A stretch of 64,000 nucleotides of DNA from positions 62,001 to 126,000 of the forward strand of contig CANKAM010000001.1 in NCBI GenBank assembly GCA_947479755.1, given 5' to 3'. The stretch comes from Bacteroidota bacterium. GTDB taxonomy: Bacteria > Bacteroidota > Bacteroidia > SXHM01. Made by a program: the position numbers and the translations under genes. Shown here one piece after another: positions 6,007 to 30,916 of this stretch. The notes under the pieces were generated by a model. That model was not told the origin of the DNA. It searched no databases and saw only the letters and a list, made by a program, of their open reading frames with translations. The number at the start of each line of letters is the position of its first letter. Positions within the stretch are counted from its first letter, which is position 1.

Positions 6007-6945
6007 TCAGTTATTCGTTAAAATTTCCTCAAAACTTTTTTTTAGGTAAACCCCAATCATCTCATGCCTGTATTTACGTGTGAATACATCATTATCCACA
6101 ATTCTTGCTTTTTTTAGGGCTTGTTTAATAAAGTCCTCTTTGTTATTATTTAGCATGCCTTCCACAACAACCGGTTTTGGGTCAACACCTCCCAGAACAA
6201 TTTTTACTGCCCCATTTTTGCTGACAGTAACCACAGTTGTAAGCGAGCTGAATTCTAAACTCTCTCGCTGTCTCAGTTTTTTGAATACTGATTTATAGCC
6301 TTCGTTCTGTGGCAAATTAATTGCTTTAATAATGGATGTTTTTTCAAACCTCCGTGGATTTACGCCATCTCCCGTATAAATATCTTCGAGCTTTACAGTT
6401 GCAATACCGTTACTGCCGGCCACATCAATCGTGGCATTTAAACTAATGAGCGCAACCGCCATATCAGAAACAAATTTCGAGAAACAATTTTTCTTGCCTC
6501 CTGTTGCAATGCATATCTCGCCATCGCATTTCAGACAATAGCCAACCGCTTCGCGCCACCAGTCGCTCTGGTTATAAAAAGAACAACGGTTTTCGCACAA
6601 TAAATTTCCACCCAGCGTTGCTGTTTTCCGTATCATGGGCGATGCCACCGATTTTGCTGCTTCGGCCAGCACCTTATATTCAGCGCAAATAGCAGGGTGC
6701 TGGTGCAACTGGTGCAACGTTACCAGTGAGCCTATTTTCAATTGATTTTCTTCTTTCGAAATACTTCTCATTTCTGCTATCTCCGAAAGATCTATTAAAC
6801 AATCAACGGTTTCGTTTCCCTGGAATTTATTTACAAGAACATCAGTTCCTCCGGCAATAAATTTGAAATTTTCTTTTTGCTCAAGAGCAAGTTTCAAAGC
6901 ATTTTCAACTGAGTTTGCTTTCAGATATTTTTTTTCACTTACCAT
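6007..6945 (-). CDS. hcrB: FAD subunit of a xanthine-oxidase-family enzyme, 4-hydroxybenzoyl-CoA reductase beta-like
   Basis: FAD motif KFIAGGTDVL and ATLGGN; insert CENRCSFYNQSDWWREAVGYCLKCDGEICIATGGKKNC matches the extra [4Fe-4S] loop known from 4-HBCR beta subunits. Confidence 0.75.
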   Translation of the reverse strand: MVSEKKYLKANSVENALKLALEQKENFKFIAGGTDVLVNKFQGNETVDCLIDLSEIAEMRSISKEENQLKIGSLVTLHQLHQHPAICAEYKVLAEAAKSVASPMIRKTATLGGNLLCENRCSFYNQSDWWREAVGYCLKCDGEICIATGGKKNCFSKFVSDMAVALISLNATIDVAGSNGIATVKLEDIYTGDGVNPRRFEKTSIIKAINLPQNEGYKSVFKKLRQRESLEFSSLTTVVTVSKNGAVKIVLGGVDPKPVVVEGMLNNNKEDFIKQALKKARIVDNDVFTRKYRHEMIGVYLKKSFEEILTNN

Positions 6946-6946
6946 G

Positions 6947-12300: not shown

Positions 12301-12330
12301 AGTTTTTATTATGTAGCCTATGTTACTTTG
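12287..12330 (+). promoter_or_regulatory. Fnr-like box plus -7-like element (bcr operon)
   Basis: Same box; TTACTTTG at 12323-12330, 36.5 nt from box centre to final G. Confidence 0.7.
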
Positions 12331-12348
12331 CTCAAAACAATTCTGAAC

Positions 12349-13509
12349 ATGAAGTCGCTTGAAACAATATTGAATGAGTGTGAGCACCTTGCCTTTGACC
12401 TGAATTTCACACGGGCAAAAGAATGGAAGGCAGGAGATAAAAACAGAATTTTGGTGGGCTATTTACCAATCTATGTTCCCCGCGAAATTATACATGCTGC
12501 AAAAGGATTACCTGTGGGAATAATGGGAGCAGGCGACCGAAAACAAATTATTAAAGGTGATGCCTATTATCAATCATATATCTGCCACCTGCCGCGCGGA
12601 ATAATAGAAATGGCGCTTGATATAAACCTGAATGATTTTGACGGATTCATGTTTCCGGCAATTTGTGATTGTGTTCGAAATCTTTCCGGAATGTTTAAAT
12701 TATCGAAGAAAGGAAAGTTTCAACGGTATTTTGATTACCCTCAAAATTTCGACCCGTTTATAGGTGGTGTTTTTTATGAGCAGGAAATGGAAAAGGTGAT
12801 GGATGATATGTATGCCATAAACAAAGTAAAAGTTACTGACGATGCTTTATATCAAGCCATCGAACTTTATAATGTAAACAGAAATTTAATAGAAGAAATT
12901 TATGATATACGTCAACAATACCCTTGGCGTTTGTCTGCAGTTGAAACCTATCATATCCTTCGTGCCGGAATTACTATTCCTGTGGAGGAGCATAATGAAT
13001 TACTTAAACAGGTGGTTGAACATATCAGCAAAGAGCGGGGCGAACCCATGGATAATATTAGGGTGGTGGTTTCCGGTTCATTCTGTGAGCAGCCTCCCAT
13101 TGGCTTGATTAAATCAATTGAAATGGCAGGCTGCTATATTGTGGATGATGATTTTATGCTAGGCTCGCGTTGGATTCAGGGAGATATTAATAGAAATATA
13201 ACTCCACTTAAAGCATTGACTGATGCATATATTAACCAAAGCACTTTTTCATCTGCATTTTATGATGTAGGAAATCCGAAAGGAAAGCGTTTGGTTAATC
13301 TTGCGAAAAAACGCTATGCTGATGGCGTTATTTTTTCAGCTGCAAGTTTCTGCGACCCTGCGTTATTAGACCGACCTCAAATGCAAAAGGAGTGTGACGA
13401 AGCTCAAATTCCGCACATCAATTTCCAATTTCACGAAAACACAGGACAATTTAAAGTTATTAAAGAACAGGCAGGAACTTTTTCCGACTCAATAAAATTA
13501 TGGGCTTAG
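12349..13509 (+). CDS. bcrC: Benzoyl-CoA reductase, subunit C
   Basis: GYLPIYVPREIIHAAKGLPVGIMGAGD...GDAYYQSYICHLPRGIIEMAL closely matches remembered BcrC. ORF track starts at TTG 12328; ATG 12349 preferred because 12328 overlaps the -7 element. Confidence 0.9.
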   Translation: MKSLETILNECEHLAFDLNFTRAKEWKAGDKNRILVGYLPIYVPREIIHAAKGLPVGIMGAGDRKQIIKGDAYYQSYICHLPRGIIEMALDINLNDFDGFMFPAICDCVRNLSGMFKLSKKGKFQRYFDYPQNFDPFIGGVFYEQEMEKVMDDMYAINKVKVTDDALYQAIELYNVNRNLIEEIYDIRQQYPWRLSAVETYHILRAGITIPVEEHNELLKQVVEHISKERGEPMDNIRVVVSGSFCEQPPIGLIKSIEMAGCYIVDDDFMLGSRWIQGDINRNITPLKALTDAYINQSTFSSAFYDVGNPKGKRLVNLAKKRYADGVIFSAASFCDPALLDRPQMQKECDEAQIPHINFQFHENTGQFKVIKEQAGTFSDSIKLWA

Positions 13510-14680: not shown

Positions 14681-15982
14681 ATGGCAGACCCAAAAGAAGC
14701 AATAAAAGAAAAGAGCATGATAATCCAGAAGGAAATGCTCGCAAAGCAATTCAGCGATTTAAGCAAAGCAAAAGAGTTGGGCAAAAAAGTAGTTTACACA
14801 TTTGTTCCCGGAAATCTTACGGAATTAATTCTTGCATTTGACATGCTGCCTGTTTACCCCGAGATTAATGCGCTGCAAAGTGGCATGCGAAAAAAATCTG
14901 GCGGATATATTAAAGACGCTGAGAAAATGGGTTACTCGGAAGATGTATGCACCTATGTGAAGTGCGACATTGGAATGATGCTGAACGGAAATATTGGTCC
15001 CACGGGAGAAAAACTTCCTTCACCAGATTTGCTCTTACTCAGTTATACCGGCTGTTTTACATTTTTGAAATGGTTTGAGAACTTAGAACGCCTCTATCCC
15101 GGTGTTCCGGTTGCCATGCTGCACACACCTTACCAGGAAGACGGAAAAATTACCAAAGAACAAGTGGATTACATGGTTAAGCAACTTAAGGAAGAAGTAA
15201 TTCCAAAATTTGAACAGGTTACCGGAAATATATATGACCCTGAGCGTCTGAGTAAAATGCTTGAAAATTCAGTCACAGCAGAAGAATATTGGGTGAAAAT
15301 TCTTGAGATGGCAAAAAACAAACCATCACCAATTGACGCCTATTTTGCCGGTGTATATTATATGGGACCCATCAACACGGCATTCAGAGGAACAGACGAG
15401 TGCGTAGAGTATTACAAGGAATTATACAAAGAAGTAAATGAACGTGTAAAGAACGGATTGTTGCCTGTAAATCCTGAAGGCGAAATGAAGGAAGAGCGTT
15501 TTCGCTTAGTGGTTGAAGGACCGCCCAACTGGACAAATTTCCGCGAGTTCTGGAAAATATTTTACGATATGGGCGCTGTGATTGTGGCCTCAACCTATAC
15601 TAAAGTTGGCGGATTATATGATACAGGTTTCAGGCACAATCCTGCTGAACCACTTGAAAGTCTTGCAAAATACTGCATGGGTTGCTATACCAATCTTAAC
15701 CTGCCCCAACGTGTTGATTTGATTGAAAAGTATATTAAAGAATACAAAGCCGATGGTTTTTTAATCAACTCGATAAAAAGCTGTAATTCATTCTCAGCAG
15801 GTCAGCTGATGATTATGCGCCAGATAGAGCAGCGCACGGGAGTTCCTGTAGGTTTTATTGAAAGTGATTTGGTTGACCCCCGCTATTTTTCTTATGCCAA
15901 CATAAAAAACCGTTTAGAATCATATTTTCAAATGCTGGAACAACGAAAAATAATATTAAAACAGGAAGAAGAAACAGTATAA
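14681..15982 (+). CDS. bcrB: Benzoyl-CoA reductase, subunit B
   Basis: SEDVCTYVKCDIGMM, LLLSYTGCFTFLKWFE, VVEGPPNWTNFREFWKIFYDMGAVIVASTYTKVGGLYDTGFRH, INSIKSCNSFSAGQL, ESDLVDPRYFSYANIKNRLESYFQM. Confidence 0.94.
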   Translation: MADPKEAIKEKSMIIQKEMLAKQFSDLSKAKELGKKVVYTFVPGNLTELILAFDMLPVYPEINALQSGMRKKSGGYIKDAEKMGYSEDVCTYVKCDIGMMLNGNIGPTGEKLPSPDLLLLSYTGCFTFLKWFENLERLYPGVPVAMLHTPYQEDGKITKEQVDYMVKQLKEEVIPKFEQVTGNIYDPERLSKMLENSVTAEEYWVKILEMAKNKPSPIDAYFAGVYYMGPINTAFRGTDECVEYYKELYKEVNERVKNGLLPVNPEGEMKEERFRLVVEGPPNWTNFREFWKIFYDMGAVIVASTYTKVGGLYDTGFRHNPAEPLESLAKYCMGCYTNLNLPQRVDLIEKYIKEYKADGFLINSIKSCNSFSAGQLMIMRQIEQRTGVPVGFIESDLVDPRYFSYANIKNRLESYFQMLEQRKIILKQEEETV

Positions 15983-15995
15983 ATAAAATTAAACG

Positions 15996-17420
15996 ATGAG
16001 CAAATACTACCTCGGAGTTGACCTCGGCTCAACTACTTCAAAAGCTGTAATCATTAATGAAAATGATGAAATAATAGGACGCGGAATAACCAACACCCGC
16101 GCCAATTACTCAGTTGCATCCGACATAGCACGTGATGAAGCGGTTTACAACGCACGATTTTCAGTGCTGGAGAAAAAACTGGAAAGTGAAATAAATGCAC
16201 GCCCCGAATACAAAAAATACATTACTGATCTGGAAAGCGTGTTTCAGTATGAACAGTTTAAAGTTAAACTTGACCGGTTGGGGGATGAGTTGGTAAAAAC
16301 CTGCAACTCATTTTTTAAAGATGAAAAAATAAGGGAAGAAATACTTAACCATCTTCGTAACATTCGCAGAGCATTTAAACCGAAAATTAAACACGATTAT
16401 TTATACAACAACTTAGGCGCTAAAAATCAATTCTTCCGAGATATTGTTTCAGAAAAATACAATGAAGAAGTAAACAAGTTGGACATGGCACTTTTTGAGC
16501 CCCTGATGATTGTATGGGACAAAAGCATAAGTCCTGCCGAAAATCAACGCGTGCAATTCAATTTTAAAGAACTGGTGCAAAAAGCAATGGATGAGTTGCG
16601 TGAAAAATATAAGAACCTTCCTGAAACTTCAGCAGAAAATACCAGCGTAAATTTTGATGCAGAGATTAATCTGCTTAATGGTAATTTTGACCATGTAGCC
16701 GAAACGCTTCGTCATCATATTGATGAGATATCAGAATTGGAATTTCATATAGCAAACATGACCGGCACCGGCTACGGACGCGCATTGCTTCCTTTCCCAT
16801 CAGATTGTATCCGCTCAGAAATTTTGTGCCATGCCTTTGGTGCACACGCAGTATTTCCAGAAACCCGCACCGTACTTGACATTGGCGGGCAAGATACCAA
16901 GGCCATTCAAGTTGATAAATATGGACTCGTAACATCTTTTCAGATGAATGACCGATGTGCGGCAGGCTGTGGAAGATATCTGGGATATATAGCAGATGAA
17001 ATGAGTATATCATTAAACGAACTTGGTCCCATGGCAATGAAAGCAGAAAAAGAAGTTACCATCTGCTCAACCTGCACCGTGTTTGCAGGAGCCGAGTTAC
17101 GTGAACTTACCAATCTGGGCGAGAAACGTGAAGACATATTAGGAGGTTTGCACAAAGCAATTATTATGCGTGCCATGTCGCTGATTGCAAGGTCAGGCGG
17201 AGTATTTAATGAGTTTACTTTTACGGGAGGTGTTGCCCGCAATCCAGCTGTAATAAAATACCTTACACAATTAGTGCGTGAAAATTACGGCAACGATATC
17301 AAAATTAATATCCATACAGATTCTATTTTTATGGGTGCGCTTGGTGGAGCTATGTTTGCCCGCAGAAACATACAATCAGATTTACCTTCTGCTAAAAAAG
17401 GAAAAGAGGCAACTGCATAA
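15996..17420 (+). CDS. bcrA: Benzoyl-CoA reductase ATPase subunit A
   Basis: GVDLGSTTSKAVI N-term, DIGGQDTKAI, NDRCAAGCGRYLGYIA, CSTCTVFAGAEL, FTGGVARNPA. Confidence 0.92.
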   Translation: MSKYYLGVDLGSTTSKAVIINENDEIIGRGITNTRANYSVASDIARDEAVYNARFSVLEKKLESEINARPEYKKYITDLESVFQYEQFKVKLDRLGDELVKTCNSFFKDEKIREEILNHLRNIRRAFKPKIKHDYLYNNLGAKNQFFRDIVSEKYNEEVNKLDMALFEPLMIVWDKSISPAENQRVQFNFKELVQKAMDELREKYKNLPETSAENTSVNFDAEINLLNGNFDHVAETLRHHIDEISELEFHIANMTGTGYGRALLPFPSDCIRSEILCHAFGAHAVFPETRTVLDIGGQDTKAIQVDKYGLVTSFQMNDRCAAGCGRYLGYIADEMSISLNELGPMAMKAEKEVTICSTCTVFAGAELRELTNLGEKREDILGGLHKAIIMRAMSLIARSGGVFNEFTFTGGVARNPAVIKYLTQLVRENYGNDIKINIHTDSIFMGALGGAMFARRNIQSDLPSAKKGKEATA

Positions 17421-18639: not shown

Positions 18640-18668
18640 AATAAATTTATTCTTGAAAAATGAGAACA

Positions 18669-18712
18669 CAAACATCTGAAACTATTGAATTTAGCACATG
18701 ACAAAAGTCATG
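18669..18712 (-). promoter_or_regulatory. Possible Fnr-like box for the histidine kinase gene
   Basis: Perfect palindrome CATGAC-AAAA-GTCATG (18697-18712); minus strand GATGTTTG ending at 18669 (35.5 nt, one off the common spacing). Confidence 0.4.
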
Positions 18713-18988: not shown

Positions 18989-19828
18989 ATGGAACAATCA
19001 TTTTATACAATGGGCATTGATGTAGGAAGCAACTTCATCAAATTAGTTTTGTTAGATTATTCTGCCAAACCTAAAATTGTTGACAAGCACACTGAGAAAA
19101 TCCGCAAGCGAAACCCTACACAGGTAGCTGACGAAATGATAAGCACAATGCTTGCCAAGCATAACCTCACTTACGAAGATGTGGCATATCTGGCTTCAAC
19201 AGGTGAAGGTGATTTGGTTAAGCGCAAACGCGGACACTTTTACGGAATGACCACCCACTCAAAAGGAGCGCATTTTCTTTTTCCCGATGCGCGCACTGTT
19301 GTAGATATGGGAGCACTGTTTGTGCGAGCCGTAAAAATATCGCCAGATGCCCGTGTTCAGGATTATAAAATGACAGGACAATGCGCTTCCGGATCAGGAC
19401 AATTTGTTGAAAACATTTCGCGATATCTCGGTTTATCCATTGAAGAAGTAGGTGATGTTTCGTTGCAGGCTGATAATGCAGAAGTATCCTCAGGTATTTG
19501 TGCTGTGCTTGCCGAAACAGATGTAATCAACATGGTTTCACGCGGCATTTCAACACCAAATATTATTAAAGGAATACACATTTCAATTGCCGGGCGGATA
19601 CTTAAATTGCTCAGCTCTCTGAAAGGCGAATCGCCAATTATTTTAACAGGTGGTATGGCGCTGAATAAAGGAATGATGCAAGCATTAGAAGAGCAACTAG
19701 AGGAAACCGGCAAAAAGTTTGAAGTAAAAACGCATCCCGATGCGATATATGCCGGTGCCTTGGGAGCTGCACTGTGGGGAGGTTTCAGACATATTAAATT
19801 AATAGAAAAACAAGCTTTAGCAGCCTGA
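18989..19828 (+). CDS. bcrD: Benzoyl-CoA reductase ATPase subunit D
   Basis: YLASTGEGDLVKRKRGHFYGMTTHSKGAHFLFPDARTVVDMGAL, MTGQCASGSGQFVENISRYLG, SGICAVLAETDVINMVSRGIS. Confidence 0.92.
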   Translation: MEQSFYTMGIDVGSNFIKLVLLDYSAKPKIVDKHTEKIRKRNPTQVADEMISTMLAKHNLTYEDVAYLASTGEGDLVKRKRGHFYGMTTHSKGAHFLFPDARTVVDMGALFVRAVKISPDARVQDYKMTGQCASGSGQFVENISRYLGLSIEEVGDVSLQADNAEVSSGICAVLAETDVINMVSRGISTPNIIKGIHISIAGRILKLLSSLKGESPIILTGGMALNKGMMQALEEQLEETGKKFEVKTHPDAIYAGALGAALWGGFRHIKLIEKQALAA

Positions 19829-21582
19829 TGCAATACTTGAATTCCAATATTGAATTAAGGGAAACTGTTCCTAACATAGCACAAATGTTGCAACACAATG
19901 CAACACGTTTTGCAGATAATTATGTGTTTTTTGAAAAACAAGATGGAGTTTACAAAGGCATAACGTGGAAAGTTTTTTACCGCGATATTCTAAATCTTGC
20001 AGCCAGCTTGAAAAAAGCGGGATTTGCAAGTGGTGATAAAATGATTTTTTATTCACCAAACAGATTTGAAATGCTGGAACTTGAGTTAGCCGTGATGGCA
20101 ATCGGGGGGGTTAGTATTCCGATTTTTGCGTTCTTCAATTCCGACACAGCTGAATTATTAATAAAACATTCCGATGCAAAATATCTTGCAGTAGCAGGGC
20201 ATACACAACTGAATAATATACATGCCTCAATTCCTCTGAAACACATTATTGTATTTGATGATATAATTGATGACAGATTTAATAATCTTCTCTCTTTTCA
20301 CTCGCTGTTTGAAAACGAAAATATAAATGACCAGGTGCTTCGCACAGATGCCTTAGGAGATGAAATATGTCTGAATATGTACACCTCCGGCACAATGGGA
20401 ACACCCAAATGTGTGCAATTAACGCACACCAATATTTTGTCACAACAGGCAGCAATACAGCAATTGTGGAATGTAGATGAGCATGACCGGTTTCTCTCAT
20501 ACCTGCCATGGCATCATAGTTTTGGAGGTATTTATGAGCTGTTCGCAGTCTTATGCAACGGTGCAACTATGTATTTAGAATCGTGTTATGGAAAAGACGC
20601 TTCAACTATACTTGAAAACTGGAATTTAGTTAAGCCCACCATCTATTTTAGCGTTCCACGGGTCTATCAGGCGATTTTTGAACTTTTCAAAACTAATCCC
20701 GATGCCGAAAAAATATTTTTTCATCCTCAACTGAAATTTGTTTTTACTGCTGCCGCACCCATGCCCGAAAAACTATCAAATGAATTTGCAAAGCGTAACG
20801 TGCTTATTTATGAAGGTTGGGGATTAACAGAAACATCGCCCTGCAGCACTGTTACTGACCCACATTCAAAACGTGAAGCGGGTGTTGTAGGTAAACCTAT
20901 TCCGGGTGTTTCTCTGCGGATTGCAGATGACGGAGAAATTCAAGTGAAGGGACCAAATGTGATGAAAGGGTATTATAAAAATGATGAAGCAAATAAAGGA
21001 GCCTTTACAGATGAGGGTTGGTTTTGCACAGGGGATATTGGAGAGTTTACTTCAAACGGATTGAAATTAATAGCACGCAAAGACAGGATTTTCAAACTTT
21101 CAAACGGTGAAAAAGTTATTCCAACAGACATGGAAACACTCATTCACGGAAAATGTCATTATATCGCTTTTGCAATGGTAGAAGGTTCAGGAAAGGAATA
21201 TCCTGTTGCACTGCTTTTTCCCAACAAAAAACTTTTTGAAAACCCGGATTATGAAATCAGTCCAATTGAAGGGTGTTTTTGTCCGCGTAGCCCAGAGGAA
21301 TTAGCAAAGTGCCTCCGAGGTTGTTTAAATGATGCTAACTGCGCAATAGGGCAAAAATTTGCAAAAATAAAATCTGCAGTTCTGATTGATGACGAACTTT
21401 CACTGGAGAAGGGAACACTGACACCATCAATGAAAGCAGCAGTAAAAAATGTAGTTACTATGTATAAAGAGCAGTTGGAAAATTTATATGAAAGCAATCC
21501 TGTTCAAAACGAAAAAGTATTTGTAATAAAATTAGACGATAAGTACCCTGGAAGAGTTATGCAACTTGATAAAGTCTCATAA
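19828..21582 (+). CDS. AMP-forming acyl/aryl-CoA ligase (long-chain FACS-like)
   Basis: 584 aa; MYTSGTMGTPKCVQLTH, YEGWGLTET, GWFCTGDIGEF. Confidence 0.88.
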   Translation: MQYLNSNIELRETVPNIAQMLQHNATRFADNYVFFEKQDGVYKGITWKVFYRDILNLAASLKKAGFASGDKMIFYSPNRFEMLELELAVMAIGGVSIPIFAFFNSDTAELLIKHSDAKYLAVAGHTQLNNIHASIPLKHIIVFDDIIDDRFNNLLSFHSLFENENINDQVLRTDALGDEICLNMYTSGTMGTPKCVQLTHTNILSQQAAIQQLWNVDEHDRFLSYLPWHHSFGGIYELFAVLCNGATMYLESCYGKDASTILENWNLVKPTIYFSVPRVYQAIFELFKTNPDAEKIFFHPQLKFVFTAAAPMPEKLSNEFAKRNVLIYEGWGLTETSPCSTVTDPHSKREAGVVGKPIPGVSLRIADDGEIQVKGPNVMKGYYKNDEANKGAFTDEGWFCTGDIGEFTSNGLKLIARKDRIFKLSNGEKVIPTDMETLIHGKCHYIAFAMVEGSGKEYPVALLFPNKKLFENPDYEISPIEGCFCPRSPEELAKCLRGCLNDANCAIGQKFAKIKSAVLIDDELSLEKGTLTPSMKAAVKNVVTMYKEQLENLYESNPVQNEKVFVIKLDDKYPGRVMQLDKVS

Positions 21583-21593
21583 AAATATAAGAA

Positions 21594-22826
21594 ATGAGCG
21601 AATACAAAATAAAATCAACTGAAACCATGAAGCGTATCATGGGCGAATATTTTATAAGCCTTGATGAAACAACACGTCAAAAAAAGGTAGCGTGGTGCAC
21701 CAGTGTTGGTCCGGCTGAACTGCTGCGCTCATTTGGTTTTGAAGTTTACTTTCCGGAAAATCACGGGGCTTTATTAGGCGCAACACGCACTGCAATGGAT
21801 TTTATTCCCGAAGCCGTGAAGTGCGGATATTCCGGACATGTATGTTCATATACTACTGCGGATATTGGTTCGTATCTGAAAAAGGAAACCCCGCTGCAAA
21901 AGCATTATGGATTAAAAGGTGCACCAAAGCCTGATTTAATTGCTTACAACACCAATCAGTGTCGTGAGGTGCAGGATTGGTTTCGGTTTTTTGCTGATGA
22001 ATTTAAGTGCCCGATAGTTGGCATAATGCCTCCGCGCCATGTTGATGAAGTTAGCAGTGACGAAGTGGATTTAGTGGTAAAGCAATTTAAAAATATGATT
22101 CCTGTTTGCGAACAGGTTAGCGGACAAAAATTTGACCTTGATAAATTTAAGGAAGTAATAAAACTAAGTAAAGAAGCTACATTGCTATGGCAAAAAGTTT
22201 TAAAAACTTCTACCGCCATGAATGCGCCTTTAAGCTTTTTTGATGGCACCATTCACATGGGTCCAATAGTGGTTTTGCGTGGAACGCAGGTTGCAAAAGA
22301 TTACTACACAACCCTGCTTGCCGAATTGAAAAACAATGTAAATAACAATTTTGGATTTCTTCCAAAAGCAAAAACCAGAATTTTCTGGGAAGGAATGCCC
22401 ATTTGGGGAAAACTAAGAATGTTAAGTGATTTATTTACTTCCAATCATGCTGCTGTTGTTGCTTCAACCTATTGCAGCAGTTGGGTATTTGACAAGTTTG
22501 ATGAAACGGACCCCTGGAATTCAACCGCACGGGCTTACACCGAAATATTCATCAACCGCAGTGAAAAAGCAAAAATGAAAATGCTGGCAGATTGGTTTGA
22601 TGAATACAAAATTGATGGCATTGTTTTTCACGACAGTAAAACCTGTTTCAATAATTCAAATGCAAAATTCGGAATGCCCCAGCGTTTGCAAAAATTAACA
22701 GGAGTGCCTGCCTTGGTGATAGAAGGAGATTTATGTGATTTGCGTTTTTTCAGCGAAGGACAAAGCATGACGAAAATTGAAACATTTATAGAGCAATTGG
22801 AAGAAAATAAACTGGTTAATAATTAA
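21594..22826 (+). CDS. 2-hydroxyacyl-CoA dehydratase D / BcrB-like single-subunit protein
   Basis: 410 aa; CGYSGHVCSYTTADIGSYL, AYNTNQCREVQDWFRFF, VVASTYCSSWVFDKF, FHDSKTCFNNS, VIEGDLCDLRFFSEGQ. Confidence 0.8.
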   Translation: MSEYKIKSTETMKRIMGEYFISLDETTRQKKVAWCTSVGPAELLRSFGFEVYFPENHGALLGATRTAMDFIPEAVKCGYSGHVCSYTTADIGSYLKKETPLQKHYGLKGAPKPDLIAYNTNQCREVQDWFRFFADEFKCPIVGIMPPRHVDEVSSDEVDLVVKQFKNMIPVCEQVSGQKFDLDKFKEVIKLSKEATLLWQKVLKTSTAMNAPLSFFDGTIHMGPIVVLRGTQVAKDYYTTLLAELKNNVNNNFGFLPKAKTRIFWEGMPIWGKLRMLSDLFTSNHAAVVASTYCSSWVFDKFDETDPWNSTARAYTEIFINRSEKAKMKMLADWFDEYKIDGIVFHDSKTCFNNSNAKFGMPQRLQKLTGVPALVIEGDLCDLRFFSEGQSMTKIETFIEQLEENKLVNN

Positions 22827-22835
22827 GAACGGCAA

Positions 22836-24680
22836 GTGAGTAATAAGCAAAAACTAAAAGTTGGAATTATTGGTCTTGGGCCGGTAGGAATGATTTTGGC
22901 TGTGAAATTACAGGAAGCAGGCTGTGAAGTGGCTATTTGTGAGCAAAACGAAGCCAAAGCAAAAAAAATAAAAAACGAAGGAATTATTCTTGAAAATGTA
23001 ATCTCCGCTTCTGCAAAATTTGAAAAAGTATGTCAATCAGTTTCAGAACTTCAGGATTGGGATGCCGATTATCTGATTTTTGCTTTAAAATCACATCAAA
23101 CACCTACAGCTGTTAAAGAAGCACAGATACTGAATACTGAAAAACTTACAGTAGTATCGGCACAAAACGGTATTAATATTGAAGAATTGCTGGTTGAGGG
23201 TTTTGGCGAAGATAAAACATTGAGGATGGTTATCAACTTTGCCGGAAATCCGGTAGCACCCAACAATACAAAGGTTACATTTTTCACACCGCCAAATTAT
23301 ATCGGATCAATTAATGAAGCCCGGCTTAACAAAGCAGCTGAAATTGCATCAATTCTTTCATCAGTGAAACTTGAAACTAAAGTTGTAGGCTCTTTTGAAT
23401 TGGTAAAAAGAGTTTGGGAGAAAACCATTTTAAATTCTTCACTCAGTGCGTTATGCGGTGTTGGTCGGTTAACAATGGCTGAAGCCATGAACGACCCCGA
23501 CACAGTTGAATTAATTGAGCAGATAATAAGAGAAGGAGTTGATGTTGCAGAGAAAGAAAAAATACATTTCCCTGATGATTTTATTAGGCAATGCATGCGC
23601 TACCTGAAAAAGGGAGGCGACCATTTTCCATCGCTTGCGCTTGACCTGATTAATAACCGACCAACTGAGATTGATTATTTCAACGGAAAAATTGTGGAAT
23701 ATGGAAAGAAGCATTATGTCCGTGCCTCGCTAAATCTTTCATTCACTAACATGGTGAAAGCAATGACCAACAAAAATATTATTTCCAGAATTCCGGGTGC
23801 AGCAGGCAATGTGAATAGGAAAATTATGGAGAAAGGAATTGTAAATAAAAATGGTTCTGCGCAGGTGTTCCAGAATAAAAACTGTTTTTTAGGAATTGAT
23901 CTTGGGTCGGCATATTCAAAATTTACAGTTATTGATGACACCGCTGAAATTTTGTTCAGATATTTTCTGCCAACTTTAAATAATGATAAGCAGGCTTTTA
24001 AAAATGTGATGCAAACTGTTTTGTCAAATTTTAGCATTAGGTACAGTTGTGCAACCGGATATGGCAGAAAACACTTTACAGATACAGACATTGTCAAGAC
24101 AGAAATAAATTGTGCAGCAGCAGGAGTTTCTCATTTCTATCAGGGTGAAAAAAACATTATAGACATTGGCGGGGAAGACATAAAAATCATTCGCTGTAAT
24201 GACGAAAATCACGTAAAGAATTTTTACATGAACGATAAATGTGCTGCCGGCACAGGCTCATTCCTCTCAGAAATTGCAGAACGCGCTGAAATAAATATTA
24301 CTGAAATGAGCAGTCTGGCATCCTTATCAAATTATGATAAAGAGTTGAACAGTTTCTGCACAGTGTTTGCAAAAACCGAAATAATGAACTGGGTTTTTGA
24401 AGGCATGAAAACACAGGATATAGCACGCGGCATCTATATTTCAATAGCAAATAAGGTTGCAAAAATGCGCTTAGACCCGGGAATTCCTACGTATATGATT
24501 GGAGGCGTAATTGCGCATCACCCTTATCTGAAAGTGCTGCTGAATGAAAAGTTTGACAAGGATATCCAGATAATTGAAAACCCTCAGTTTGTGGTTTCTT
24601 TTGGAGCAGCTCTTATTGCGAAGCAAACTTATAATAGAGATGAAAACAAAACGAAAGAAAAAGAACTTCAGGAGAATTAA
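22836..24680 (+). CDS. Ketopantoate reductase (PanE/ApbA)-like domain fused to BadF/BadG/BcrA/BcrD-type ATPase
   Basis: 614 aa; N-term VGIIGLGPVGMILAVKLQEAGCEV...LKSHQT; C-term FLGIDLGSAYSKFTVI, NIIDIGGEDIKII, NDKCAAGTGSFLSEIA, FCTVFAKTE, GGVIAHHPYL. Confidence 0.88.
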   Translation: MSNKQKLKVGIIGLGPVGMILAVKLQEAGCEVAICEQNEAKAKKIKNEGIILENVISASAKFEKVCQSVSELQDWDADYLIFALKSHQTPTAVKEAQILNTEKLTVVSAQNGINIEELLVEGFGEDKTLRMVINFAGNPVAPNNTKVTFFTPPNYIGSINEARLNKAAEIASILSSVKLETKVVGSFELVKRVWEKTILNSSLSALCGVGRLTMAEAMNDPDTVELIEQIIREGVDVAEKEKIHFPDDFIRQCMRYLKKGGDHFPSLALDLINNRPTEIDYFNGKIVEYGKKHYVRASLNLSFTNMVKAMTNKNIISRIPGAAGNVNRKIMEKGIVNKNGSAQVFQNKNCFLGIDLGSAYSKFTVIDDTAEILFRYFLPTLNNDKQAFKNVMQTVLSNFSIRYSCATGYGRKHFTDTDIVKTEINCAAAGVSHFYQGEKNIIDIGGEDIKIIRCNDENHVKNFYMNDKCAAGTGSFLSEIAERAEINITEMSSLASLSNYDKELNSFCTVFAKTEIMNWVFEGMKTQDIARGIYISIANKVAKMRLDPGIPTYMIGGVIAHHPYLKVLLNEKFDKDIQIIENPQFVVSFGAALIAKQTYNRDENKTKEKELQEN

Positions 24681-24682
24681 AA

Positions 24683-25942
24683 ATGAAAGGATATCACCAT
24701 AAAGATAAAGGCATTGGAATAACTTACGATGATATTTATTTAGTAAACGGAGCACGCACACCGTTCGGAAAATTATGCGGAACACTTGGACAAATTTCGC
24801 CAACTGATTTAGGAATTTATGCGGCAAAAGGAGCAATAGACAAATCTGGAATTAAACCTGAAGATGTTGATCAGGTTTTTATTGCCAACATAGGGCAAAG
24901 CTCACCCGACACTTATTTTCTTCCGCGCCATATCGGCTTGTATGCAGGAATTCCGTTTGGAATTCCTGCCGTTATGCTGCAACGAATTTGCGGTTCGGGT
25001 TTTGAAACAATTATTGCGGGAGCGGAACAAATAACGTTATGTAAAGCGAATGTTGCTCTGTGTGGTGGAACAGAAAACATGACACTTTCTCCAACCGCAG
25101 CATTTGGAAACCGTATGGGATATGCCTTGGGCAAACCCGGTTTTGTTGATATGCTTTGGGAAGCGTTGAACGACACTGCTGCCGTTCCCATGGGTTGCAC
25201 AGCAGAAAATGTGGCAAAGAAATACAACATCACAAAAAATGATGCGAATGAGTTTGCGAAACTTTCTGTTGACAAAGCACTGGCTGCAATTGAGCACGGA
25301 TTTTTTAAAGATGAAATTCTTCCAATGAATTCAACTGTTTTTGAAGCAGAAGGACTAAAACAGAGGAAAATTAATTTACCGCGAGGAGTAAAAGATTTTG
25401 TGAAAGACGAAAATATACGTCCTTCAACATTAGAAGATATGGCAAAACTGCCTTCTGTATTTATGAAAGATGGAGTTCAGAATGCAGCCAACTCAAGCGG
25501 AATTGTTGATGGTTCGGCAATGACCATTATTGCACATAAAAATTTGGTGACAGAAAAAAAACTGAGACCACTAACAAAAGTTATTGCGTCAAGCACCAGC
25601 GCACTTGACCCGAACGTAATGGGACTTGGACCTGTTCCAGCAATAAAATTGATTTTAGAAATGACAGGGCTGAAAATTTCTGATATCGGGTTATTTGAGA
25701 TCAATGAAGCATTTGCCGCTCAATTCATCGGCTGTGAAAGAGAACTCGGACTTGATCGGACTATTTGCAATGTAAACGGAGGAGCTATTGCATTAGGCCA
25801 TCCTCTGGCAGCATCCGGAACAAGATTATCACTAACCATTTCAAGAGAAATGAATTTTAGAAAAGTAAAATACGGAATTGCCTCTGCCTGCATCGGAGGA
25901 GGACAAGGAACAGCTATATTATTTGAAAATATAAATTTATGA
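24683..25942 (+). CDS. Thiolase (acetyl-CoA acetyltransferase family)
   Basis: 419 aa; QRICGSGFETIIAGAEQI, GGTENMT, NVNGGAIALGHPLAASGTR, CIGGGQGTA. Confidence 0.92.
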   Translation: MKGYHHKDKGIGITYDDIYLVNGARTPFGKLCGTLGQISPTDLGIYAAKGAIDKSGIKPEDVDQVFIANIGQSSPDTYFLPRHIGLYAGIPFGIPAVMLQRICGSGFETIIAGAEQITLCKANVALCGGTENMTLSPTAAFGNRMGYALGKPGFVDMLWEALNDTAAVPMGCTAENVAKKYNITKNDANEFAKLSVDKALAAIEHGFFKDEILPMNSTVFEAEGLKQRKINLPRGVKDFVKDENIRPSTLEDMAKLPSVFMKDGVQNAANSSGIVDGSAMTIIAHKNLVTEKKLRPLTKVIASSTSALDPNVMGLGPVPAIKLILEMTGLKISDIGLFEINEAFAAQFIGCERELGLDRTICNVNGGAIALGHPLAASGTRLSLTISREMNFRKVKYGIASACIGGGQGTAILFENINL

Positions 25943-27003
25943 GCAGCGAAAAAATATCTCAATGGCAAATGGTTGAGTTAAATAAAGAATTTAAACTAAC
26001 CGAAAGTTCTGATATTGATTTAAAAAAAGGGGAAGTGCTTGTAAAAATTGCCGGATGCGGAGTATGTCATACCGATTTGAGTTTCTGGCATTCGGGAGTT
26101 CAGACAAAACAACAATTACCGCTAACGCTTGGTCATGAAATAAGCGGAACAGTAGTTGCCGGTGATGCAAAATGGCTAAAAAAAGCTGTAATTATTCCAG
26201 CTGTTCTTCCCTGCGGTGAATGTGATTTTTGTAAAAACGGGCGAAGCAATATTTGCAGAAATCAGTTGATGCCAGGCAATGATTTTCATGGTGGATTTGC
26301 CTCTCATATTAAAGTTCCTTCAAAGTTTCTTTGTCCTGTTCCGCCAAGCGTATTAAAAAAATATAAGCTTGAAGAGCTTTCTGTGATTGCAGATGCAATA
26401 TCAACACCTTACCAGGTTGTAAAAAAATCTGAACTTGAAGCGGGTGATTTGGCAATTGTGATTGGCGTGGGAGGTGTAGGCGTTTACGGTTCTCTTATCG
26501 CGAAAATTGCAGGAGCGAAAGTTATTGCACTTGATATAAATGAGGAGAAACTTTTAACAACCAAAGCAAATGGCATTGATGCAACGCTTAACATCAAAGG
26601 GCTTGACATAAAGACAATAAAAGAAAAAATAAAAGAGCATGCCAAAGAGATTAATGCACCAAAATTTGGTTGGAAAATATTTGAATTTTCGGGAACAAAA
26701 GCCGGACAGGAACTTGCATTTAATTTAATCACATTTGCTTCCACACTTTCAATAGTTGGTTTTACAATGGATAAGGTTGAAGTTCGTCTGAGCAACCTGA
26801 TGGCATTTGATGCAAAGCTTATCGGAACATGGGGTTGCCGCGCAGAGCTTTATCCTGAGGTGCTGAATTTGATAGCCAATGACAGACTGAAAATTTCACA
26901 GTTTGTTCAAACATTTCCCATGTCGCAAATTAATGAAGTTTTTAAAAACACATTAGAACATAAATACACTAAACGTTCGGTCTTGGTGCCGGATTTTAAC
27001 TAA
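25939..27003 (+). CDS. had: 6-hydroxycyclohex-1-ene-1-carbonyl-CoA dehydrogenase (Zn-dependent MDR)
   Basis: GCGVCHTDLSFWHSGV, GHEISGTVV, CGECDFCKNGRSNIC; operon position; ATGA overlap with thiolase. Confidence 0.85.
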   Translation: MSSEKISQWQMVELNKEFKLTESSDIDLKKGEVLVKIAGCGVCHTDLSFWHSGVQTKQQLPLTLGHEISGTVVAGDAKWLKKAVIIPAVLPCGECDFCKNGRSNICRNQLMPGNDFHGGFASHIKVPSKFLCPVPPSVLKKYKLEELSVIADAISTPYQVVKKSELEAGDLAIVIGVGGVGVYGSLIAKIAGAKVIALDINEEKLLTTKANGIDATLNIKGLDIKTIKEKIKEHAKEINAPKFGWKIFEFSGTKAGQELAFNLITFASTLSIVGFTMDKVEVRLSNLMAFDAKLIGTWGCRAELYPEVLNLIANDRLKISQFVQTFPMSQINEVFKNTLEHKYTKRSVLVPDFN

Positions 27004-27014
27004 AAACAAAACCC

Positions 27015-28112
27015 ATGGAATTGAAAAATCACAATCTTGTTGAAACAAATTTCAAAGAAATTATTTTCGAAAAGCGTCCCTGTATTAATTACGATGGAAA
27101 GGAAGTAAGCAATCTGTATAACGCATGGATTATCATCAATAATCCTAAGCAATATAACTCTTACACAACAGCAGCTGTTAAAGAAATAATTCTTGCTTTC
27201 GGTCAGGCGTCAAACGACAGAAGTGTTGTTGCAGTGGTGTTTACCTCTGTAGGCGACAAGGCGTTTTGCACAGGTGGAAACACAAAAGAATATGCAGAAT
27301 ACTATGCAGGAAACCCACAGGAATATTCGCAATATATGCGTTTGTTTAACGATATGGTGAGCGCTATTCTGAAATGTGAAAAACCTGTTATATGCCGAGT
27401 AAATGGAATGCGAATTGGTGGCGGCCAGGAAATAGGAATGGCTTGCGATTTCAGCATTGCAAGTGATATGGCGCGTTTCGGACAGGCAGGACCGAAACAC
27501 GGAAGTGCTGCTATTGGCGGGGCAACCGACTTCCTTCCGCTTTATGTGGGCATAGAACGAGCAATGGCTTCGCTTACACTTTGCGACCCTTGGTCTGCTC
27601 ATCAAGCTTATTATTTTGGTGTGATAACTGACATTGCTCCGGTATTAAAAGTAAATGGAAAATTTATTGCAAACCCTTTGGTGGTTACTGACAAAATAGT
27701 GGACGAATTCGGAAGGTTTGTTTTTGGCACATCAAAAACAGGTGAAGATCTTAAGAAAGCAAAAGAACTTGTAGCATCAGGTGAAACAGACCTTTCCATG
27801 CTGGATGAAATGACCAATAAACTGATTGGAAAAATCCTGAACACATTTCCAAATTGCATGAATAAATCAATCTCAGAAGTTCGCAAGTTTAAACTGGAAC
27901 ATTGGGACAAAAACAAAGAAGCAAGCCGCGAATGGCTTGCCCTGAATATGATGACAGAAGCAAAAGCCGGTTTCCGTGCATTTAATGAAGGACCAAAAGA
28001 AAACCGTGAAGTGGATTTTATAAAACTGCGTCAGCTGTTGGCTGAAGGTCATGAATGGAATGATGAATTGCACAAAACTATTTCACCTCAGTTTCAAAAA
28101 GCAAGTGTTTAA
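27015..28112 (+). CDS. oah: 6-oxocyclohex-1-ene-1-carbonyl-CoA hydrolase
   Basis: 365 aa crotonase-fold; AWIIINNPKQYNSYTTAAVKEIILAF, GDKAFCTGGNTKEYAEYYAGNPQEYSQYMRLFNDMVSAIL, RVNGMRIGGGQEIGMACDF. Confidence 0.9.
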   Translation: MELKNHNLVETNFKEIIFEKRPCINYDGKEVSNLYNAWIIINNPKQYNSYTTAAVKEIILAFGQASNDRSVVAVVFTSVGDKAFCTGGNTKEYAEYYAGNPQEYSQYMRLFNDMVSAILKCEKPVICRVNGMRIGGGQEIGMACDFSIASDMARFGQAGPKHGSAAIGGATDFLPLYVGIERAMASLTLCDPWSAHQAYYFGVITDIAPVLKVNGKFIANPLVVTDKIVDEFGRFVFGTSKTGEDLKKAKELVASGETDLSMLDEMTNKLIGKILNTFPNCMNKSISEVRKFKLEHWDKNKEASREWLALNMMTEAKAGFRAFNEGPKENREVDFIKLRQLLAEGHEWNDELHKTISPQFQKASV

Positions 28113-28115
28113 ACT

Positions 28116-28904
28116 ATGCAGAAAATAAAAACAGTTTTTACTCATGACAATTCAGTTGTCCGCGTTATCCTTGATGATGGGAAAGGCAATGTGCTTGATC
28201 ACATTATGATGGAAGAATTGCAGGAACTACTCAATGCATTCAGGCAAAACAGTCATCTAAAACTAATTGTATTTGAAGGAGCCGGAAAACATTTTTCTTT
28301 CGGTGCAAGTGTGGAAGAACACAAAAAAGAATTTGCTGCAGCCATGCTTAGTTCTTTTCATCGCTTGTTTTATTCATTAAGCGAGCTTGCAATACCAACG
28401 CTTGCAAAAATAAGCGGACAATGCCTTGGTGGCGGGCTGGAAGTGGCACTGATGTGCAATTTCATGTTTGCTGATAAAACCGCAAAACTCGGACAACCCG
28501 AAATTATGCTGGGTGTGTTTCCTCCACCCGCATCCATTATTCTTGCTGAGAAAATAGGATTAGCACGCGCTGAAAACTTATTGCTTACCGGAAAGACTAT
28601 TGATGCAGCAGAAGCAAAATCAATAGGATTAGTAGCTGAATTGTTTGAGGACAAAGCTGCAATGGAAACAGGAACAGAACTATGGATTGAACAGTATATT
28701 ATTCCGAAAAGTGCAACATCACTGCGTTATGGCGTAAAGGCTTCACGGATAAAGTTCAATCATATTCTCAGCAATTTTTTACCTCAATTAGAAAGATTAT
28801 ATATGAATGAACTGATGGCAACCCATGATGCCAACGAAGGGATTAACTCTTTTATTGAAAAGAGAAAACCAGTTTGGGAAAACCAAAAAGAAACAATAAA
28901 ATGA
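28116..28904 (+). CDS. dch: Cyclohexa-1,5-diene-1-carbonyl-CoA hydratase
   Basis: 262 aa crotonase family; FEGAGKHFSFGASVEEHKKE, GQCLGGGLEVALMCNFMFAD; adjacent to oah/had. Confidence 0.85.
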   Translation: MQKIKTVFTHDNSVVRVILDDGKGNVLDHIMMEELQELLNAFRQNSHLKLIVFEGAGKHFSFGASVEEHKKEFAAAMLSSFHRLFYSLSELAIPTLAKISGQCLGGGLEVALMCNFMFADKTAKLGQPEIMLGVFPPPASIILAEKIGLARAENLLLTGKTIDAAEAKSIGLVAELFEDKAAMETGTELWIEQYIIPKSATSLRYGVKASRIKFNHILSNFLPQLERLYMNELMATHDANEGINSFIEKRKPVWENQKETIK

Positions 28905-30916
28905 AAACAATAAAAACAGTTGGTGTGGTGGGTGCCGGAACAATGGGTTCGGCACTGGCGCAAAAGTTTGCGCAGGAAAATTTCAAAGTAATTCTTGCTG
29001 ACCGTGAAATGAAGTTTGTTGAAAAAGGTCTGAATGGTATTAAAGCTATGCTGGCTCAGGGTGTGGAGAAAAAAGTATTTACACCGGAACAGGCAAATGC
29101 AACAATTTTAAACATCACAGGAACTTCCGATTTAAATGACTTAGTTGTTTGCGACCTGATTATTGAAGCAATTTTTGAAAACTTTGATGCTAAAAAAGAT
29201 TTATTCAAAACGCTTTCAAATATTACGTTGCCTGATACTATTATCGCAACCAATACTTCCTCTTTTTCGGTTACAGAACTTTCGGCTTATGTAAAATATC
29301 CTGAACGGTTTTTAGGGTTGCACTATTTTTATCATGCTGCCAAAAACAGGTTAGTTGAAATAATTCCGGGTGAAAAAACTTCTGCTGAAACAATGGATGC
29401 TGCAAAAGTTTTCTGTATTAAATCAGGAAAAGATGCCATTACCTGCGCTGATGCTTATGGCTTTGTTGTAAATCGTTTTTTTGTTCCCTGGCTTAATGAA
29501 GCGGTTAAAATTGTTGAACAGAAAGTTGCCACAAAAGAAGAAGTTGATGCCATTTGCATGGAAGCTTTTGGAATAGGCATGGGTCCATTTGCGCTGATGA
29601 ATGCAACAGGAGTTGCTGTTGCATATCATTCTGAAAAAACACTGGAAATATTTGGTGAGCCTTATAAAGTAGCTTCTTTGTTAAAGCAACAGTCAGAATT
29701 AAACAACCCTTGGGAGCTGGGTGAAAACTCATCACTAACAGTTGATGAAAAGAAGGAAAGAATTATCAAAGAAAGAATGTTGGGTATTGTATTTTTTGTT
29801 GTGTCTGAAATTATTGACGAAAAAATTTGCACTGCCTCAGCAATAAACCAGGGAGCCAGAATTGGCTTGCAATGGAAAAAAGGACCAATTGATTTGATGA
29901 AAGAATTAGGAGATGTAACGGTTAAAGAACTTATTTTCGGCTATGTTTCAAGCTACAGCAATGTTCAAATTCCAAATTCCATTGGCATTAATTTCTGGGA
30001 AACAGAACATGTTCTTTTTCTTAAAAAAGGGGATACCGCTTTTATTACCATTAACCGTCCGCAGGATTTGAATGCATTGAATGTGGATGTAATTGCACAA
30101 TTAGATGAAAAGTTTTCGCTGGCAGAGTATAATCCTGAAATACGAAACATAGTTATTACTGCAAGCGGTAAAGCATTTGTTGCAGGTGCCGACATTAATT
30201 TTTTTGTTGAAAACATAACTACTCACCACATTGAAAACATCGCTTCGTTCACCTCTTTAGGACAAAACGTTTTTCACCGGATTGATAATTCGGTGAAAAA
30301 TGTAGTGATGTTACTTAACGGGCTTGCATTTGGCGGTGGATTGGAGCTTGCACTTTGTGGTGATATAATTCTTGCCGTAAATACTGCAAAACTTGCCTTT
30401 CCCGAAACAGGAATTGGTATTTATCCGGCTTTGGGGGGAACCTTTCGTGCCAGCAGGCGAATAGGTAAAGGACTTACAAAATATCTTATTTGTTCAGGCA
30501 ATGTATTAAGCGTAGGTGACGCAGAAAAGATTGGATTGATTGATAAGGCAATAAGCATTGATGATATGTGCGAACTGCTTGCAGGCAATTTGCCTTTAAA
30601 TTCCTTTACACAAAAACACGACAAACATTTTAACGGAAAATTTTCGGTTGTTGAAAAGCTGTTTAATAATTATTCCATTGACAATATCTTATCAGGAAAT
30701 ATAACAGGAGATGAAATTCCAAGTGAAATTAAAGCTGAAATTCAGAAACGTTTAGGTCAGAAAGCACCCATAGCCTTGAAAATTTCTGAAAACCTGATTA
30801 ACAATAATTCAGGCGACAACGAGGCGCTTGAAGAAATTACATCTATATTTTCTACAAACGATGCCTTACTCGGGTTAAGTTCTATCGGAAAAAAAGTACA
30901 ATTCCAAGGCAATTAG
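28901..30916 (+). CDS. Bifunctional 3-hydroxyacyl-CoA dehydrogenase / enoyl-CoA hydratase
   Basis: GVVGAGTMGSALAQKFA...NTSSFSVTELS; C-term crotonase NGLAFGGGLELALCGDI. Start at 28901 (ATGA overlap) preferred over 28874. Confidence 0.9.
   Translation: MKTIKTVGVVGAGTMGSALAQKFAQENFKVILADREMKFVEKGLNGIKAMLAQGVEKKVFTPEQANATILNITGTSDLNDLVVCDLIIEAIFENFDAKKDLFKTLSNITLPDTIIATNTSSFSVTELSAYVKYPERFLGLHYFYHAAKNRLVEIIPGEKTSAETMDAAKVFCIKSGKDAITCADAYGFVVNRFFVPWLNEAVKIVEQKVATKEEVDAICMEAFGIGMGPFALMNATGVAVAYHSEKTLEIFGEPYKVASLLKQQSELNNPWELGENSSLTVDEKKERIIKERMLGIVFFVVSEIIDEKICTASAINQGARIGLQWKKGPIDLMKELGDVTVKELIFGYVSSYSNVQIPNSIGINFWETEHVLFLKKGDTAFITINRPQDLNALNVDVIAQLDEKFSLAEYNPEIRNIVITASGKAFVAGADINFFVENITTHHIENIASFTSLGQNVFHRIDNSVKNVVMLLNGLAFGGGLELALCGDIILAVNTAKLAFPETGIGIYPALGGTFRASRRIGKGLTKYLICSGNVLSVGDAEKIGLIDKAISIDDMCELLAGNLPLNSFTQKHDKHFNGKFSVVEKLFNNYSIDNILSGNITGDEIPSEIKAEIQKRLGQKAPIALKISENLINNNSGDNEALEEITSIFSTNDALLGLSSIGKKVQFQGN

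Follow-up and report, generated by a model that had tools for sequence, protein, structure and literature searches.

Known 2-hydroxyacyl-CoA dehydratases (HADs) are alpha-beta heterodimers (PMC11574389). Described systems of this kind include HadBC with its activator HadI in Clostridioides difficile (3o3m, 4eht) and the FldH/FldA/FldBC/FldI pathway of Clostridium sporogenes, compared here by description, which forms cinnamoyl-CoA and converts it to phenylpropionate as an electron sink (general knowledge and PMC11574389). Class I benzoyl-CoA reductases (BCRs; BcrCBAD, MbdONPQ and BzdNOPQ) employ a similar ATP-driven electron transfer, and the double-cubane cluster protein (DCCP, or YjiM) with its reductase DCCP-R (6eno, 7yyl) joins an HGD-D protein without beta partner to an activator of its own. 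Here, we analyze a stretch of 64,000 nucleotides from a Bacteroidota genome (positions 62,001 to 126,000 of contig CANKAM010000001.1; hereafter the window), in which an HGD-D protein without adjoining partner, HGDD3, is followed by a fusion of a ketopantoate-reductase-type domain (KPR) to a BadF-type activator domain (BadF3). Judged by sequence, KPR and HGDD3 together with their neighbors probably form a module that turns 2-oxoacids through 2-hydroxyacyl-CoA into enoyl-CoA, and we lean toward the view that it is a feeder that starts from aromatic 2-oxoacids and leads, with (R)-2-hydroxyacyl-CoA and (hydroxy)cinnamoyl-CoA as intermediates, to (hydroxy)benzoyl-CoA.

In comparison with HadBC/HadI, the module lacks a HadC-type subunit, its activator is fused to a 2-oxoacid reductase, HGDD3 has two additional cysteines (C35 and C294), an AMP- or ADP-forming CoA ligase stands in place of a CoA-transferase, and the hosts are non-clostridial with a link to benzoyl-CoA. 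The Fld pathway shares the predicted 2-oxoacid reduction, CoA activation and ATP-primed dehydration to cinnamoyl-CoA, whereas the module has no FldC equivalent and would continue by beta-oxidation to benzoyl-CoA.

HGDD3 is an intact open reading frame (ORF) of 410 amino acids (aa) that matches Pfam HGD-D (PF06050) with 198 bits. Its nearest counterpart, both in sequence and in predicted fold, is HadB, which forms the catalytic subunit of (R)-2-hydroxyisocaproyl-CoA dehydratase; HGDD3 aligns with it over the full length. Among sequences of solved structures, HadB (3o3m_A; 161 bits, 4e-46) ranks before MbdO (120 bits) and BzdO (74 bits), and Foldseek placed the predicted model (pLDDT 83.7) nearest to HadB 3o3m (TM-score 0.87-0.90), followed by MbdO/BzdO (0.78-0.85), DCCP (0.71-0.74) and then beta subunits. 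HGDD3 carries the HadB-type TSV/PEN motif with S37 and E55, and we take Ser37 and Glu55 of HadB to be catalytically important. Three cysteines, C84, C123 and C351, are invariant and align with the residues that hold the [4Fe-4S]-OH2 cluster of HadB and of BzdO (PMC11971306). In BzdO, Ser44 and Glu65 touch each other and the cluster water (PMC11971306). The score against the NCBIfam HadB equivalog was 217 bits, under the cut-off of 750, and HGDD3 appears to be of the same kind as HadB, though not its orthologue. The earlier note had described the protein as BcrB/HgdB-like. HGDD3 shares superfamily and cluster with class I BCRs, but it reaches only 168 bits against TIGR02260 (cut-off 487) and 77 against TIGR03191 (cut-off 449), the BCR alpha-subunit families, and where BcrB has FVPGN/PEIN it lacks this motif; these results rule out a BcrB/BzdO paralogue.

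The fusion gene starts with GTG 9 nt after the end of HGDD3 and encodes 614 aa without interruption; its stop codon is 2 nt from the start of a thiolase gene, a spacing that is operon-like. Pfam recognizes ApbA (aa 9-157), ApbA_C (191-310) and BcrAD_BadFG (352-595), all over their cut-offs, so that a PanE/ApbA-type NAD(P)-dependent 2-oxoacid reductase (aa ~1-318), a linker (~319-349) and an ATP-dependent activator (~350-595) can be delimited. NCBIfam cut-offs are exceeded twice, by apbA_panE (TIGR00745, 164.6 versus 141.35) and CoA_E_activ (TIGR00241, 169.3 versus 125.4). At least 97% of sequences keep the KPR catalytic residues (glycine motif from G13, N111, K196, N200 and E278), and the activator cysteines C469 (NDKCAAGTGS) and C508 (FCTVFAKTE) are equally conserved among 86 aligned fusions and single-domain homologues; both cysteines are invariant across the 16 fusions of one alignment (A4). 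The activator is complete, as the earlier note had read it, and cluster cysteines are retained in both proteins. BadF3 qualifies as a HadI/BadF-type acyl-CoA dehydratase activase and KPR as a PanE/ApbA family member. The best match of the activator domain among sequences of solved structures is HadI, and by Foldseek the fusion is nearest to the activators 9gai_D/4eht and, in its KPR domain, to the D-mandelate dehydrogenases 3wfi/5x20. The AlphaFold2 model (pTM 0.52) contains two well-folded domains and a low-confidence stretch at 312-323, and hence predicts no fixed arrangement of KPR and BadF3.

The fusion is genuine. Full-length fusions of 52-100% identity occur in a dozen other whole genomes across many families, and 78 fused proteins were found in a set of loci comprising the 80 best for HGDD3 among named genomes plus 13 others, which rules out a sequencing or assembly error. 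HGDD3 and the fusion are identical in a metagenome-assembled genome (MAG) labelled Chitinophaga pinensis (L058); most genomes compared here are MAGs. Close relatives are all fused, whereas KPR and BadF3 are separate genes in four more distant loci (L038, L055, L116 and L133), directly adjacent in three of them and interrupted by hydroxybenzoyl-CoA-reductase-type genes in L038; the fusion would thus be a derived yet conserved trait. In a KPR tree rooted on forms from the KSB1 phylum (see below), several split forms sit on deep branches, some at weakly supported nodes. The simplest reading of this tree would be an ancestral split state followed by fusion, although fused genes may also have been split later.

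Occurrence of the module was followed in genomes of the window's class and of the phylum of a KSB1-labelled record (L101); Bacteroidota sequences served as seeds for these scans, which sample the known diversity in part. HGDD3 is present in 37 of 289 genomes of the class, all of which have BcrB, and neither occurs alone. Among 82 genomes of the KSB1 phylum, five have a module-type HGDD3, and again all five have BcrB. Adding G059, G295 and G161, the module is accompanied by a BCR in 45 of 45 genomes; in G161 this BCR is of the Bzd type. The linkage is loose in some of these. In G557, where one gene is divided between contigs L173 and L147, which have a 76-nt end in common, the module operon (KPR - thiolase - 3-hydroxyacyl-CoA dehydrogenase::enoyl-CoA hydratase fusion (HCDH::ECH) - HGDD3 - BadF3 - CoA ligase - crotonase) contains no bcr gene, and bcrB lies elsewhere. 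The order is KPR - HGDD3 - BadF3 - had in G554, and KPR and BadF3 are present in L152 and L147. Another five genomes of the KSB1 phylum contain HAD-like alpha genes only, without BcrB; where the neighborhood of HAD-like alpha genes in this phylum is readable (L145, L148, L150), a beta gene lies alongside and KPR is missing, and in L145 and L148 BadF3 directly adjoins the alpha gene.

Bzd-type BCR genes occur in Bacteroidota in L139 (G161, with BzdN and BzdO over cut-off) and L140 (G308, with Bcr-type and Bzd-like sets side by side). An apparent transfer to Pseudomonadota was rejected, for both matches in the record labelled Candidatus Competibacteraceae (L067) share contig, positions and scores with G360 of the window's class; the label is probably wrong. 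A Thermoanaerobaculia record with a Bacteroidota-type cluster (L084) is a probable contaminant contig.

The fusion might also serve coenzyme A synthesis, its KPR domain being the genome's ketopantoate reductase fused to an activator by chance. The KPR query indeed found no other PanE-family protein in the window's genome (G000; 3.9 Mb, 99.6% complete). However, relatives without a BCR cluster likewise show no match, and the lineage therefore does not depend on KPR for ketopantoate; moreover, the gene is restricted to BCR-bearing genomes and adjoins HGDD3 in most loci even when unfused. We regard this explanation as scarcely credible, and context and nearest structures argue for a 2-oxoacid substrate other than ketopantoate.

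As the earlier note had remarked, HGDD3 has no partner subunit beside it, and the observation extends to the whole genome: exactly three genes of G000 carry PF06050, namely bcrC, bcrB and HGDD3. The same number is found in 31 of 34 genomes, in the standard case with the same three genes. The second cluster that the beta subunit of a HAD heterodimer would hold thus has no adjoining gene here, and we infer that HGDD3 is a homodimer. With BcrC as the sole beta-type subunit in most genomes, and HGDD3 in all 37 genomes of the class that bear a BCR, HGDD3 and the fusion might instead be BCR accessories, either an extra low-potential electron booster or an alternative alpha subunit working with BcrC, for example in a second ring reduction. 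We consider this quite improbable. In the KSB1 phylum, HGDD3 is missing from about ten genomes that do have BcrB, and had, oah and dch are present in those clusters that were inspected; G161 pairs HGDD3 with a Bzd-type reductase (BzdN) and has no BcrC; and the accessory role leaves KPR and the CoA ligase unexplained. Between HGDD3 and BcrC the correlation of pairwise distances is 0.49, compared with 0.88-0.94 among true BCR subunits and 0.87 between the fused KPR and BadF3, values of which only the contrast is informative because common organismal history raises them all; the best correlation of HGDD3 is with the CoA ligase (0.70). A stoichiometric partnership with BcrC is accordingly disfavored. 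The KSB1-phylum benzoyl-CoA clusters without the module include L154, L155, L157, L159, L160 and L162, some cut by contig or stretch ends, and several such clusters have an ORF of ~150 aa between oah and dch.

The missing partner also recalls the homodimeric DCCP, to which the earlier note had likened HGDD3, and two cysteines add to the resemblance: C294 falls on BzdN Cys263, one of the double-cubane ligands and a distal-cluster position in proteins of that type, and C35 misses BzdN Cys36 by a single residue. HGDD3 shares both cysteines with its closest relatives in the KSB1 phylum, L147 and L152, where no beta gene adjoins, whereas five more distant homologues, three of them next to a beta gene (L145, L148, L150), have V/I/L and T at these positions. 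A DCCP-like reductase of small molecules, served by its own activator, is nonetheless very improbable. HGDD3 scores 65 bits against the DCCP family NF040772 (cut-off 350) and is nearer to HadB than to DCCP in fold, which rules out membership; four of the six [8Fe-9S] ligand positions match, C35 is shifted by one residue and the sixth position has no cysteine. The HadB active-site residues are retained, and the surrounding genes are those of CoA esters. What may survive of the comparison is the missing beta subunit, C294 and the near-miss C35.

The activation step is conserved, although the enzyme is not. The AMP-forming ligase next to HGDD3 has in its C-terminal domain five cysteines (C, CxC, Cx3C) that neither two paralogous ligases of G000 nor two distant homologues possess. 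An ADP-forming acyl-CoA synthetase (CoA_binding_2, Succ_CoA_lig, ATP-grasp_5) is present in 33 loci and replaces the AMP-forming enzyme where inspected. Many of these loci retain a stand-alone protein of ~150 aa homologous to the AMP ligase C-terminal domain, and over 77 loci the five cysteines are kept in 94-100% of both ligase and stand-alone forms. Most short stand-alone proteins have lost or altered the ligase motif LTPSxK; among the 24 rows classed as solo, a few of 185-253 aa are ligases truncated at contig ends or by frameshifts. A search of one stand-alone protein against solved structures gave no match. One example is L094:11220-11681, with ~20 similar cases. An acid-to-CoA step that is conserved beside HGDD3 supplies what a 2-hydroxyacyl-CoA dehydratase needs, and the proposal of the earlier note, a module from 2-oxoacid through 2-hydroxyacyl-CoA to enoyl-CoA with the neighboring ligase, is well supported by HadB likeness, KPR residues and ligase linkage.

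For the substrate, the balance tips somewhat toward aromatic compounds; this assignment and the direction of the reactions are what we infer. KPR would reduce phenylpyruvate and/or 4-hydroxyphenylpyruvate, derived by transamination of phenylalanine and tyrosine, to the (R)-2-hydroxyacid, which the adjacent AMP-forming ligase (in other species the non-homologous ADP-forming one) would convert to (R)-2-hydroxyacyl-CoA. The fused activator, as a putative dimer with one [4Fe-4S] cluster on C469/C508, would deliver an ATP-driven electron to HGDD3, and HGDD3 would remove water by the ketyl-radical mechanism of 2-hydroxyacyl-CoA dehydratases to give (hydroxy)cinnamoyl-CoA. Hydratase, 3-hydroxyacyl-CoA dehydrogenase and thiolase would then release acetyl-CoA, and the resulting (hydroxy)benzoyl-CoA would be used by the 4-hydroxybenzoyl-CoA-reductase-like enzyme of the cluster and by BCR.

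Benzoyl-CoA as product is suggested by the fact that BCR accompanies the module throughout, also where the two are unlinked. The D-mandelate dehydrogenases of the ketopantoate reductase family (3wfi, 5x20, 8wl1), which are unfused, are the nearest solved folds of KPR and support a role with aromatic (R)-2-hydroxyacids; the stand-alone KPR of the KSB1 phylum likewise matches 8wl1/8wl3/8wl4 and 3wfi best in sequence. A tyrosine branch would fit the hydroxybenzoyl-CoA-reductase-type genes adjoining or near KPR in L038, L040 and L129. In G161 a KPR gene overlaps a HisC-family aminotransferase gene; in L156 genes for a HisC-family aminotransferase and for a member of the tryptophanase/tyrosine-phenol-lyase family lie by KSB1-phylum BCR genes, and L072 has a gene of the latter family by its cluster. 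Several points weigh against the proposal. KPR is only 20-25% identical to D-mandelate dehydrogenases, the AMP-forming ligase is more like long-chain than like aryl-CoA ligases, aromatic aminotransferases are rare in the loci (2 to 3 cases), and the HisC-like neighbor in G161 could be a plain enzyme of histidine biosynthesis. Carriers mostly have no beta subunit besides BcrC/BzdN, whereas known HADs are heterodimers, and the substrate was assigned from context and homology rather than from substrate-determining residues.

The main rival is a module acting on a non-aromatic 2-hydroxyacyl-CoA, either branched-chain or 2-hydroxyglutaryl-CoA on its way to glutaconyl-CoA, and tied to BCR through common beta-oxidation genes. 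Homology to HadB and KPR sets the reaction class but not the substrate, the solved HAD, HadBC, uses an aliphatic substrate, and the long-chain type of the ligase would suit this rival. Yet 0 of 45 genomes have the module without BCR, even where it forms a separate operon or meets a Bzd-type BCR, and KPR is nearest to D-mandelate dehydrogenase; we judge the rival unlikely. A bolder extension of the arylpyruvate pathway is itself doubtful, though a little less so: a partnerless, homodimeric HGDD3 whose C35 and C294 hold extra iron-sulfur metal, intermediate between DCCP and heterodimeric HADs, would, with the fusion and the five-cysteine ligase domain, take phenylalanine and tyrosine to benzoyl-CoA by a new route encoded in one operon. 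Our literature search found no paper naming ketopantoate reductase together with 2-hydroxyacyl-CoA dehydratase, none joining Saprospiraceae, benzoyl-CoA and bcrA, and none describing the KPR/HGDD3 module.

Table 1. Genes of the module and its surroundings in the window.
Feature	Position	Strand	Basis
HGDD3: HadB-like (alpha-type) 2-hydroxyacyl-CoA dehydratase subunit, no beta partner	21594..22826	+	Pfam HGD-D; best PDB match and Foldseek best 3o3m; residue comparison
KPR::BadF3 fusion	22836..24680	+	Pfam/NCBIfam; conserved catalytic residues; AlphaFold2 model; Foldseek
AMP-forming acyl-CoA ligase, five-cysteine motif in C-terminal domain	19828..21582	+	Pfam AMP-binding
Thiolase, predicted last module step	24683..25942	+	Pfam; NCBIfam acetyl-CoA C-acyltransferase; 54% homologue in G557 module operon
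HCDH::ECH fusion	28874..30916	+	Pfam; homologue in G557 module operon
bcrC, BCR subunit C	12328..13509	+	TIGR02263 463 bits, cut-off 421
bcrB, BCR subunit B	14681..15982	+	TIGR02260 686 bits, cut-off 487
bcrA, ATPase subunit	15996..17420	+	TIGR02259 434 bits, best match, cut-off 578 not reached
bcrD, ATPase subunit	18989..19828	+	TIGR02261 312.8 bits, cut-off 312.85
had, oah, dch: lower benzoyl-CoA pathway	25939..28904	+	TIGR03201, TIGR03200 over cut-off; TIGR03189 237 bits (cut-off 292)
4-hydroxybenzoyl-CoA-reductase-like genes (hcrB; fused hcrA/C)	6007..9727	-	best matches TIGR03194/03193/03195, under curated cut-offs

What the earlier note had counted as a first system beside HGDD3 is, from its family matches, a complete class I BCR cluster (Table 1). 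The gene order is bcrC - methyltransferase - bcrB - bcrA - (histidine kinase, opposite strand) - bcrD - CoA ligase - HGDD3 - KPR::BadF3 - thiolase - had - oah - dch - HCDH::ECH. BcrC, BcrB, Had and Oah exceed their NCBIfam equivalog cut-offs and BcrD is at its cut-off, while BcrA and Dch are clear best matches yet under their own. The methyltransferase between bcrC and bcrB (13500-14660), which overlaps bcrC, is FlxJ-family-like (497 bits, cut-off 560) and occurs among the compared loci only here and in L043. A sensor histidine kinase on the opposite strand (17458-18675) separates bcrA from bcrD, likewise in L057/L058 (one MAG) and L088. Inspection of 30949-59389 revealed narGHJI-like nitrate reductase genes, nitrate transporters, a DnrN/ScdA-like di-iron protein and a quinol-dependent NO-reductase-like gene, from which the host looks like a nitrate reducer. 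Elsewhere, at L094:15772-19690, shortly after the module, a hydantoinase-A-type and a likely hydantoinase-B-type gene form a pair resembling acetone/acetophenone carboxylase, which may feed benzoylacetate-type intermediates.

New in this locus are the fusion, the missing partner, the two extra cysteines of HGDD3 and a five-cysteine ligase domain that persists on its own where another ligase has taken over. If the proposed function is true, the module would add a further architecture to the BCR/HAD radical enzymes, an alpha-type dehydratase without beta subunit whose activator is fused to the enzyme making the substrate. The extra cysteine pair would offer a handle on a proposed evolutionary step in which a double-cubane ancestor lost a sub-cluster (PMC11971306). 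The module would also give aromatic amino acids a new anaerobic path to benzoyl-CoA, unlike the anaerobic phenylalanine route of Aromatoleum via phenylacetaldehyde and phenylacetate (PMC6365974). A Flavobacteriales MAG from a nitrate-reducing reactor is reported to express extracellular peptidases, peptide uptake and benzoyl-CoA degradation (PMC8099898), and the route would account for the presence of BCR in protein-degrading Bacteroidota.

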